Positions 1 to 58,261 of a stretch of 58,261 nucleotides of DNA are shown piece by piece (the first letter of the stretch is position 1; every line of letters begins with the position of its first letter). The notes beneath the pieces were generated by a model, which saw nothing but the letters and a program-made list of their open reading frames with translations, was not told the DNA's origin and ran no database searches. The position numbers and the translations under genes were made by a program. Origin of the DNA: Verrucomicrobiia bacterium (GTDB lineage Bacteria > Verrucomicrobiota > Verrucomicrobiia > Verrucomicrobiales > DEV007). Location of the stretch: assembly GCA_030430255.1 (NCBI GenBank), contig JAUIGD010000002.1, forward strand, positions 1-58,261, in the 5' to 3' direction.

Positions 1-153
1 TAGAATTTCGATCCAAATCGACACGATGGTGAGGAGTTGATCGAGATCAGCGACGAGACAGCGGGGCGATTTGGGCAAATTGTAAAACGATTCGCGCCGG
101 AACGGGTAAGTCCGACAGGCTCCTAGGTGCGCGGTCGGGATCGCCCGGGACCG
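1..153. other. Non-coding left edge of the window
   Basis: No convincing gene is seen. The reading frames crossing it are GC-driven shadows of the LamG gene on the minus strand. Bases 60-105 are noticeably more AT-rich than the surroundings. An imperfect inverted repeat at about 130-152 (CGGTC.GGG, loop, CCC..GACCG) lies just past the minus-strand stop codon and could act as a terminator, but it has no T-tract. Confidence 0.4.
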
Positions 154-41802: not shown

Positions 41803-42106
41803 GCTTCGGGCAGGGCGAGGCGCCGCCATTCGTTGAGGCTGAGGAGGCCGCGGCAGGGATCGCGGACCGGGCGAAGTGGTTCCCCGCCATGGCATCGGCG
41901 GCCTGGCGTGGCGGCCGGTCGGATGGTCGATCCGGACTACCGGCCGGGGCTGATCCCGGGAATTGCGCGGGTTGGGCGGCGGCTGCGCAGCGGAGACCGG
42001 CGCCGACGCTCCAGCCTAGACACCCCGGCGATTTCAGTACAGTATCGCCTCCCTGCCGGGCGCCAACCCGGCTTGGGCCCGCGGCCTCCCCGCGCCCTTC
42101 CCGACC
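41803..42106. other. Gap before dnaN: repeat fragment and possible promoter
   Basis: No gene seen. 41811-41880 is a fragment of the dispersed element described at 57995. 42038-42043 (TACAGT) is a possible -10 for dnaN, with a weak -35 and a leader of about 55-60 nt; no Shine-Dalgarno sequence precedes the ATG. Confidence 0.4.
41811..41880. repeat. Dispersed CTAG-ended element, partial copy A
   Basis: It matches the left-central part of the full element: GGCGAGGCGCCGCC, ATTCGTTGAGGCTGAG, GGC.GCGGCAGGGAT, GCGAAG. The terminal inverted repeats and the GGGTA hairpin are missing. It lies just after the stop of the preceding gene. Confidence 0.7.
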
Positions 42107-43204: not shown

Positions 43205-43357
43205 GCGGGTCCGCAAGCCGGCCACCGATGGTCGCTGCGAAGACCGGGGTGAAGCGGCTGGGTGAACACCCTGCCCGAGCCGATCCCAACGCCAGCGCCC
43301 TCAGCATCAACGAGGGCAAGCCACAGCCCGGAGCTTGGTGATCGATCCGGGCTAGCG
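43205..43357. repeat. Dispersed CTAG-ended element, copy B
   Basis: The right end is intact: GGAGC, TTGGTGATCGAT, CCGGGCTAG. The left end is degenerate (GGTCCGCAAGCC). The central hairpin is GGGTG-AA-CACCC (43260-43271), against GGGTA-AA-TACCC in copy C, so the loop-closing pair changed on both sides. The element fills the space between convergent dnaN and the isomerase gene, and its right end supplies the isomerase stop codon (TAG in CTAG). Confidence 0.8.
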
Positions 43358-44473
43358 CTTCGCCCCGAGCCCCAGCTCCTTCTTGCAGTAGGCGATGCTG
43401 CGCTCGATCTCGCCTTTCTGGTACTCTTTCGTGGCTTCGTTGCGGTCGCGGTCGGCACGGTCGCCGGGTTTCCACGGCTCGCGCGGTTCGCCCTTTTTCG
43501 CCAACGCGAGGAACTGGTCGTAGCCGGGCGGCTCGCCCTTCGGCCACGCCTTCCAAAACTCGTCTTTCTTGACCGCGAGTTCACGGTTGAAACCCGAGAT
43601 CGTCTCGATGTTCACCGCGGTCGCGGGGCAGAGTTCGCGGAACAGTGCGAAATAGGCCCCGAGGTCGGTGGTGCCTTCGCCCATGGCGGTCCACTGCGCG
43701 GTGACGCCGTTCTCGCTCTCCCAGACCGCCGTGTCGCGGAGGCTGGTGGTGAGCGCGTAGGGGCCGAGGTTGCGCAGGTTCTCGACCGGGTCCTCCAGCG
43801 TCCAGACGGCGTTGCCGGAGTCCATGTTGGCGCCGACGAAATCCTTGCCCGCCTCCTCGATGAGGCCGACCAGCTCGGTCGAGTGCATGTCGCCGGCGTG
43901 GTTCTCCATCGCGATCTTCACGCCGTGGTCGACGCAGTAGCTCTTGTTGTCCTTCAGCACCTTCACCGTGTCGGCGATGCGCGCCTCGATGCCGCCCTCG
44001 CTCAGGCGGTCGCCGCCGTCACCGAGCACCACGCGGAAGGCGGGGGAGCCGAGCGCCTTCGCCATGCGCACCCCGAGCCGCAGGTGTTCGTCGGCGGTGC
44101 CCCAGTCGTCCTTGAAGCGCCCCGCCGTCGGGCAGATCGACCACGAACCGAGCAAAATCTTGACGCCCTTGTCGGCGGCACCCTTCGCGAGGTCCCCCAG
44201 ATACGTGTCATCGTCCAGCTTCTCCAGCGGCCCGAAATCGGTGATGAACAAGGTGTCGCAGCCCAGCTCGGCGGCGTAGTCGATCAGCTGCGGAGCCTTC
44301 CACCCCATCGCCCGCACGGCGAAGTTGTCGTAGCCGAGCGAGATCTTCGCCCCGACTTCGGGTTGCGCATCGCCCTCGCCGAGGGCGCGGCTTTGTCCGG
44401 CCAGAGCAGCGCCCGCGCCGGCGAGGGACGCGGTCTTGAGGAAGGAGCGGCGGTCGGTGTGATCTCGGGTCAT
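43352..44473 (-). CDS. Tat-exported sugar phosphate isomerase/epimerase-type TIM barrel
   Basis: The 373-residue product begins with a twin-arginine signal (RRSFLK at 8-13 followed by a hydrophobic Ala/Gly stretch). The mature part is an AP-endonuclease-2/xylose-isomerase-like barrel with metal-ligand-type motifs along the strands: ENHAGDM, NMDSGNAVW, and a Glu in MGEGTTDL. Such proteins are frequent in Planctomycetes and Verrucomicrobia and act on sugars, usually periplasmically. It is divergent from the histidine kinase gene, and the 105-bp space between them carries a candidate operator and a promoter for each direction. Confidence 0.85.
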   Translation of the reverse strand: MTRDHTDRRSFLKTASLAGAGAALAGQSRALGEGDAQPEVGAKISLGYDNFAVRAMGWKAPQLIDYAAELGCDTLFITDFGPLEKLDDDTYLGDLAKGAADKGVKILLGSWSICPTAGRFKDDWGTADEHLRLGVRMAKALGSPAFRVVLGDGGDRLSEGGIEARIADTVKVLKDNKSYCVDHGVKIAMENHAGDMHSTELVGLIEEAGKDFVGANMDSGNAVWTLEDPVENLRNLGPYALTTSLRDTAVWESENGVTAQWTAMGEGTTDLGAYFALFRELCPATAVNIETISGFNRELAVKKDEFWKAWPKGEPPGYDQFLALAKKGEPREPWKPGDRADRDRNEATKEYQKGEIERSIAYCKKELGLGAKR

Positions 44474-57124: not shown

Positions 57125-57997
57125 ATGGCCCAAATCACCGCATCCCTCGTCAAAGAACTCCGCGAACGTACCAACGCAGGCATGATGGAGTGCAAAGGCG
57201 CGCTCACCGAGACCGACGGCGACATCGAGGCCGCCATTAAATTCCTCCGCGAACGCGGCGCCATCAAGGCCGCGAAAAAGGCGGACCGCGAGGCGAAGGA
57301 GGGCGTCGTCGCCGCCCAGCTCGCCGCCGACAACACCTCCGGCGTCCTGTTCGAGATCAACTGCGAGACCGACTTCGTCGCCAAGAACGACAACTTTGGC
57401 GCCTTCGTCGCCGAGCTCGGTGAGGCCGTGCACAGCTCCGGCGCCGGCGACCTCGAGTCCGCGCTCGCCGTCCCCAAGGGTGAGGGCACCGTCGACGACT
57501 TCGTCAAATCGAAGGTCATCGAGCTGGGCGAGAACCTGCAGTTCCGCCGCATGGCCCGCTACGACCTGTCGGGCGCAGGCACCGTCGCCTCCTACATCCA
57601 CCTCGGCGGCGAAGTCGGCGTCCTCGTCGAGGTCGGCTGCGAGAACGAATCGACCGCCTCGGCAGACGGTTTCGTCGATCTCGTCAAAGACCTGACGATG
57701 CACATCGCCGCCGCCGAGCCGGCCGGGATCGTCCGAGACGATGTCGATGGCAGCCTCATCGAGGCCGAGCGCGAAGTCTTCCGCAAGGAGATGGAGAACA
57801 GCGGCAAGCCCGAGAACATCATCGAGAAGATCGTCGATGGGAAGATCGACAAGTTCTACAGCACCGTCTGCCTCGCGGAGCAGGGCTTCGTCAAAGATCC
57901 CAGCACCTCGATCTCTGACCTCCTCGCCGCGAAGGGCAAGGAGCTGGGCGACACGCTCACCGTGCGCCGCTTCGCCCGCTTCGCCGTCGGCGGTTAG
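57125..57997 (+). CDS. tsf: Translation elongation factor Ts
   Basis: The 290-residue product is the EF-Tu nucleotide exchange factor. The N-terminal UBA-type domain ITASLVKELRERTNAGMMECKGALTETDGDIEAAIKFLRERG is diagnostic, followed by the core EINCETDFVAKND and ALVEVGCENE-type VLVEVGCENESTASADGF. The TAG stop lies inside the left end of a dispersed repeat element, so the repeat supplies the stop codon. The 113-bp space before the ATG is C-rich and contains no gene. Confidence 0.98.
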   Translation: MAQITASLVKELRERTNAGMMECKGALTETDGDIEAAIKFLRERGAIKAAKKADREAKEGVVAAQLAADNTSGVLFEINCETDFVAKNDNFGAFVAELGEAVHSSGAGDLESALAVPKGEGTVDDFVKSKVIELGENLQFRRMARYDLSGAGTVASYIHLGGEVGVLVEVGCENESTASADGFVDLVKDLTMHIAAAEPAGIVRDDVDGSLIEAEREVFRKEMENSGKPENIIEKIVDGKIDKFYSTVCLAEQGFVKDPSTSISDLLAAKGKELGDTLTVRRFARFAVGG

Positions 57998-58180
57998 CCC
58001 GGATCGACCACCCCATCCGCAGGCGGGGCGCCGCCATTCGTTGTTGTTGCTGAGAAGGCGGCGGCCGGGACCGGCGAAGCCGCTGGGTAAATACCCATCC
58101 CGAGCCGAGCACCACGCGGACGCCCTCAGGTTCAATGGGGGTGAGCCGCGGCCCGGAGCCTGGTGATCGATCTTGGCTAG
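57995..58180. repeat. Dispersed CTAG-ended element, full-length copy C
   Basis: About 186 bp. The left end TAGCCCGGATCGACCACC and right end GGTGATCGATCTTGGCTAG are imperfect inverted repeats. Inside are a CGCCGCC/GGCGGCG stem (58029-58035 with 58057-58063) around ATTCGTT...GCTGAG, and a TGGGTA-AA-TACCCA hairpin (58084-58097). It has no coding capacity. Its left end supplies the tsf stop codon. Most complete of the four copies. Confidence 0.85.
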
Positions 58181-58186
58181 CCCGGG

Positions 58187-58261
58187 CTAGCCCGGATCGA
58201 TCACCACATCCGCAGGCGAGGTGCCGCTAGTCGTTGAGGCTGAGTAGGCGGCGGCAGGGAT
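58187..58261. repeat. Dispersed CTAG-ended element, copy D (cut by window end)
   Basis: Begins CTAGCCCGGATCGATCACCA, then matches the left-central part: GCAGGCGAGGTGCCGC, GTCGTTGAGGCTGAG, GGCGGCGGCAGGGAT. It starts 6 bp after copy C in the same orientation, so the two form a tandem pair. It continues past the window. Confidence 0.85.

Follow-up and report, generated by a model that had tools for sequence, protein, structure and literature searches.

Short, non-autonomous elements with inverted repeats that number tens to hundreds of copies between genes are known from several bacteria, including the Correia elements, QMITE1 and QMITE2 of Coxiella (PMC5896051) and the MITEs of Anabaena (PMC3542288). 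The Coxiella QMITEs also lie at the 3′ ends of genes and have a high copy number (PMC5896051), and both properties are already known for bacterial MITEs. A different kind of repeat is the REP or BIME unit associated with RAYT transposases, which measures 20-40 bp, carries a GTAG/CGTC tag and creates no target duplication (PMC3733652, PMC2817692); REPs have been reported in Verrucomicrobia (PMC3733652).

Here we describe a dispersed repeat in a 6.63-Mb metagenome-assembled genome of the Verrucomicrobiales (679 contigs, 89% complete, 6.75% contaminated). It resembles the MITEs named above in its small size, lack of autonomy, inverted repeats and intergenic copies, and we consider it, with a probability of about 0.88, to be a non-autonomous MITE of the IS1380 type. 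The window, that is, the whole stretch of DNA analysed, is the entire contig C423 of 58,261 bases, and it stops within a copy of the element. An earlier reading of the window, made from its letters alone (the sequence-only reading), had proposed four copies of a MITE or REP-like unit in gaps right after a gene, and had taken a hairpin difference between two of them as a sign of selection on structure. A profile HMM built from full-length copies matched all four sites (41814-41879, 43248-43355, 57995-58180 and 58187-58261), which places them in one family, and each of them does lie directly 3′ of a gene.

Anatomy, copies and insertion sites

Full-length copies are near-palindromes of 184 bp, consisting of 176 bp and two 4-bp target copies. 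The unit is laid out as CTAG-CCCGGATCGATCACCA ... TTGGTGATCGATTCGGG-CTAG, with both CTAGs counted in the 184 bp, and in the 61 aligned copies the terminal inverted repeat is CCCGRATCGATCACCA, 16 bp long and found at both ends. The element is thus shorter than 600 bp, lacks a transposase gene and has terminal inverted repeats, as a MITE does. The target site is YTAR, mostly CTAG, and its 4 bp are duplicated as a direct repeat: the flanks of the 65 full copies include CTAG/CTAG (34), CTAA/CTAA (4), TTAA/TTAA (1) and GTAG/GTAG (1). Since the variants often match as direct repeats rather than as the CTAA..TTAG expected of an inverted end, the outer CTAG is the target duplication. The sequence-only reading was correct that the ends are inverted, but not in extending this to the outermost CTAG, which is a direct repeat; in the window, moreover, both ends are present only in the copy at 57994-58180.

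The claim of a mobile family hinged on further copies in the genome, and these are abundant. With up to 3 mismatches allowed, the end repeat had 924 matches genome-wide (472 + 452), compared to 0 for a control consisting of the same pattern backwards. A survey of 1.28 Mb, or 19% of the genome, yielded 65 full-length copies within a total of 131 copies and fragments, which together made up 1.5% of the bases, a density that may be slightly high because ten of the longer survey contigs were picked for holding copies. The median pairwise identity of copies was 91%. Of 210 contig ends, 23 (11%) had a MITE no more than 200 bp away, compared to 2.8% for random positions; this excess indicates that the MITE is itself a cause of breaks in the assembly, and accounts for a window that stops inside a copy. 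In the same 1.28 Mb, CTAG was about 4.5-fold under-represented outside MITE copies (354 seen versus 1586 expected from trinucleotides), so that the elements supply a large share of the CTAG sites of the genome.

Deleting the MITE together with one 4-bp copy restored other repeat families without gaps at three loci. The alignment of L088:11530-11713 with the empty site at L134:14740-14898 covered 159 columns with 0 gaps (93.7% identity), that of L090:11578-11761 with C519 covered 148 columns with 0 gaps (94.6%), and the result was similar at L136:3924-4107. Together, the inverted ends, the 4-bp target duplication, the hundreds of copies and the empty sites bear out the proposal of a MITE. Tandem copies have one CTAG in common (a gap of -4 in four pairs and of -3 in one), with all five pairs in the same orientation, an arrangement that would arise when the end CTAG of an old copy serves as the target of a new one.

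Several intergenic repeat families are abundant in the host genome. One dispersed repeat of more than 160 bp (TCTCCGGAGCCATTCGTGTTGAACGATCC...) is the target of the MITE at L088:11530 and L090:11578 and is found at about ten other surveyed loci; its loci include L134, L066, C424 and C519. Another family, also MITE-like and about 160 bp long, has the ends GAGCCTGTCGGACTTAG; it is often flanked by CTAG and often directly abuts the IS1380-type MITE (window 106-125, L059:17943-18113, L095:434-593, L100:11462-11623 and L136:3781-4120), and at L136 the IS1380-type MITE is nested within it, at a TTAG.

The complete copy in the window spans 57994-58180 on the plus strand and has both ends (HMM model positions 2-184, match 57995-58180), with target copies TTAG at 57994-57997 on the left and CTAG at 58177-58180 on the right. 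A nucleotide search with this copy returned itself at 100% and dozens of other copies at 82-84% identity. The TAG stop of the EF-Ts gene (57125-57997, plus strand), at 57995-57997, is part of the left target duplication. The EF_TS Pfam domain runs over residues 73-289 of 290 and covers 203/204 of the profile, and the gene is therefore full length rather than truncated. To the right of this copy, a CCCGGG between two CTAGs (58181-58186) is a putative minimal remnant of a further, deleted copy, since the sequence CTAGCCCGGGCTAG (58177-58190) resembles what a deletion from the CCGG word of one end to that of the other would leave of a copy. It is followed by the second, tandem copy at 58187-58261 (plus strand, HMM positions 1-75), which the contig end cuts. 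The copy at 43248-43355 (plus strand, model positions 77-184) is truncated at its 5′ end and keeps the right 60% without a left end. Its right end is intact, with the right CTAG at 43352-43355, and the CTA at 43352-43354 is at the same time the TAG stop of the minus-strand gene at 43352-44473, which encodes a xylose isomerase-like TIM barrel. An internal fragment at 41814-41879 (plus strand, model positions 29-86) has lost both ends.

Stop codons and genomic position

The target YTAR is a pyrimidine followed by a TAA or TAG stop codon. When positions relative to stop codons were mapped across the survey, as the sequence-only reading had proposed, 36 of 121 Y-TAR stops (30%) were directly followed by a MITE end, compared to 4/195 (or 4 of 195+4) R-TAR stops and 3/404 TGA stops (Fisher P 3e-13 for YTAR versus RTAR). 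Genes were called with a simple codon-usage caller that was purpose-written for this analysis, and the occupied share of about 30% was stable at every gene-score cut-off, including among high-scoring calls alone. Where the stop of a gene coincides with the TAG of a MITE, this TAG must have preceded the insertion, since the duplicated bases are copied from the target, and the stop is native. Among the papers searched, no MITEs that overlap stop codons through their target duplication were found, and the occupancy of nearly one third of target-type stops, with the stop rebuilt, may be the feature that surprises specialists.

An investigation of CTAG sites by genomic context revealed that 29/65 were occupied at stop codons, 12/39 in convergent gaps, 19/83 in codirectional gaps, 1/38 in divergent gaps and 0/162 within genes. 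In an overlap test made before this, most of one copy fell inside a called gene. The finding that no copy replaces an in-gene CTAG is consistent with purifying selection, which we infer to be the cause of the positional bias. CTAGs at stop codons were more often occupied than intergenic CTAGs as a whole (P=2.6e-4), but did not differ significantly from those in convergent gaps (P=0.21). Given this similarity, the purging of harmful insertions suffices for the pattern. The idea that the MITE is tuned to stop codons, actively preferring gene 3′ ends as a harmless niche that enables its hundreds of copies, is unlikely, and an active preference is not needed as a cause where a passive filter is enough. 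The orientation of copies relative to the upstream gene was unbiased (45 versus 44).

A probable IS1380 partner and a proposed mechanism

We scanned the end sequence across 387 genomes of the order and then read the matches. In the genomes G338 (L183, 1612-3397) and G173 (L179, 137-1928), MITE-like ends enclose an IS1380-family transposase of 487-489 amino acids (PF13701 E about 1e-131; NF033539 above cut-off). The ends of these ISs are YTAR-CCCGGATCGATCACC and YTAR-CCCG(A/G)AAAACTCACC, and the core CCCGGATCGATCACC is identical to one end of the IS in both genomes. Pieces of the transposase gene were found beside the same end in G365 and in G004, the latter from the family of the host, while IS1380 homologues in bacteria of other phyla have the ends CCCGGATWTCTCACCA, a 13/16 match to those of the MITE. 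IS1380 ends as a group match the MITE ends at 13-16 of 16 positions. CTAG/CTAG flanks the IS1380 loci L208, L210, L216, L231 and L235, and TTAA/TTAA flanks the IS in L183, a YTAR duplication as in the MITE. The transposases that the sequence-only reading had suggested (IS630, IS5 or RAYT) are accordingly not the match, the ends being those of IS1380.

One point against this assignment is that the autonomous ISs in relatives have two unlike ends, GGATCGATCACC and GGAAAACTCACC, of which the MITE carries the first type on both sides. The likeness of both MITE ends to the same IS end, together with the near-palindromic body, suggests that the MITE may have arisen when one IS end was duplicated in inverted orientation.

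The host assembly (89% complete, 679 contigs, with breaks at repeats) contained no PF13701 match, which is a further point against the assignment. The absence indicates that the MITE is non-autonomous, and it was probably mobilised in trans by an IS1380 transposase. Pairs of terminal inverted repeats 0.5-3 kb apart, the size of an element, showed just a few unrelated spacings in the 1.28-Mb survey. The autonomous partner is lost, unassembled or unbinned. MITEs commonly outlive their autonomous partner, and since the assembly is also fragmented, a partner in the same genome is a supporting rather than a defining criterion.

We propose that an IS1380-family DDE transposase, absent from the assembly, would recognise the 16-bp CCCGRATCGATCACCA ends and insert the MITE at YTAR, mostly CTAG, duplicating 4 bp. 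Since Y-TAR contains TAA or TAG, a MITE that lands precisely on an in-frame stop of the form Y-TAG or Y-TAA would rebuild this stop, and the encoded protein would stay as it was. Selection would remove copies from genes and promoters, so that surviving copies would pile up on stops and between convergent genes. CTAG would be regenerated at both ends of the MITE, where new copies and unrelated CTAG-targeting ISs would land, giving rise to tandem arrays with one CTAG in common, and individual copies would then decay neutrally. A duplicated target that contains a stop would thus make gene ends a free landing site and let short transposons saturate a gene-dense genome. For every bacterial element that targets YTAR or TTAA (IS1380, IS5 group), we predict an over-representation on Y-TAR stops.

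Alternative readings and known systems

The consensus folds back along its full length, with an MFE of about -120 kcal/mol, and the window copy has a folding z of -3.2. Such stability, together with the strong 3′ location and the convergent bias, could point to a functional 3′-end element whose hairpin is selected to terminate transcription in both directions or to stabilise mRNA at gene ends, much as the sequence-only reading had supposed. Its two hairpins, GGGTA-AA-TACCC and GGGTG-AA-CACCC, are literally present in the two sequences, but the compensatory change fails in the larger set: across 61 copies the pair is G-C in 40, A-C in 18, A-T in the window copy only and another combination in 2, so that GGGTAAATACCC was found once and an A-C mismatch stood at that position in 18. 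A 2-nt loop, furthermore, could not close in RNA. The RNAalifold covariation term over the 61 copies was nearly zero (-0.43 of -53.9 kcal/mol). Three of 34 named pairs were changed on both sides, a number reached by 68/500 shuffles, and 16/18 of the both-sides-changed cells came from one pair that was broken in 23 copies. Stem pair 63-151, which is C-G and U-A in 34/61 copies and would favour such an element, is broken in 23/61. Private substitutions neither avoided the stems (75 in paired columns versus 77 expected, P 0.32) nor spared the folding energy (P 0.34), and no Rfam family matched. Changes thus broke the stems as often as they preserved them, and since covariation is near zero and stems mutate at the chance rate, we reject covariation and an RNA function. 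With the orientation unbiased and the position explained by target and purging, a selected 3′-end element is improbable. That the consensus folds back over its full length reflects the shape of the transposon itself, and when two copies of such a palindromic element differ in a hairpin, this is no evidence of functional RNA.

A REP or BIME unit moved by a transposase of the RAYT (IS200/IS605) type would likewise be palindromic, extragenic and of high copy number, and the occurrence of REPs in Verrucomicrobia speaks for it. The element otherwise does not fit: it measures 184 bp instead of 20-40 bp, it lacks the GTAG-hairpin anatomy, and it has long, DDE-type terminal inverted repeats and a duplicated 4-bp YTAR with empty sites. 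Single-strand TnpA transposition is not known to give a target duplication, and a REP origin, also raised by the sequence-only reading, is extremely improbable. The IS5 group also targets YTAR, and an IS5-group MITE could have been mobilised by the one IS5-type (DDE_Tnp_1) transposase matched in the host, on contig C442, whose IS has CTAG on both sides and sits in the common CTAG between two tandem MITE copies. Its own ends, GGCGTGTTCACGCAA, are unlike those of the MITE, whereas the IS1380 ends match closely, which makes this partnership very improbable; we regard the IS as a CTAG-targeting element that used the shared CTAG. This IS427-like element (L070:1129-1967) is about 830 bp long, and an A8 run joins its two overlapping reading frames, likely by a programmed -1 frameshift.

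The IS1380-type MITE appears to be narrowly distributed. Phage and plasmid records gave no match, the exact core had none in about 85,000 species genomes (the host's own record was possibly left out), and a sequence model run over 388 genomes of the phylum, with few candidates scored in each, recovered the host alone. Among 57 relatives, only G023 had copies, two partial ones on one contig that are possibly a binning error. Seven end-sequence matches were found in G190, some of which are short elements with related ends that are partly similar inside (CTAGCCCGTATCGATCACC). Tiny palindromes with YTAR on both sides, at L197:2442-2486 (G034, 45 bp) and L190:2956-3023 (G190, 68 bp), consist of little beyond two IS1380-type ends and represent minimal MITEs in other Verrucomicrobiales. 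No bacterial MITE with a link to IS1380 was reported in the papers searched; to the extent that the literature could be searched, this family is new and the first to be tied to IS1380.

The closest relatives of the element are IS1380 ISs (PF13701/NF033539) such as that of the uncultured Verrucomicrobiales SRR3933180_bin.1 (contig CAJXVQ010000662.1, L183/L204), which have the end CCCGGATCGATCACC and the YTAR duplication in common with the MITE. Unlike it, they are 1.65-1.85 kb long with a transposase gene, and their two ends are of different kinds, GGATCGATC and GGAAAACTC, where the MITE has two of the GGATCGATC kind. The piggyBac elements have a reported TTAA duplication and CCC-type ends, and IS1380 has been used as their outgroup (PMC10813416). 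TTAA is one of the YTAR sites and the MITE ends begin with CCC; piggyBac is nevertheless eukaryotic, and the relationship would run only via the transposase superfamily. In contrast to the Correia elements, the QMITEs and the Anabaena MITEs, which have other ends and other target duplications, the MITE described here has a stop codon within its target and, in the survey, occupies 30% of the stops of this type.
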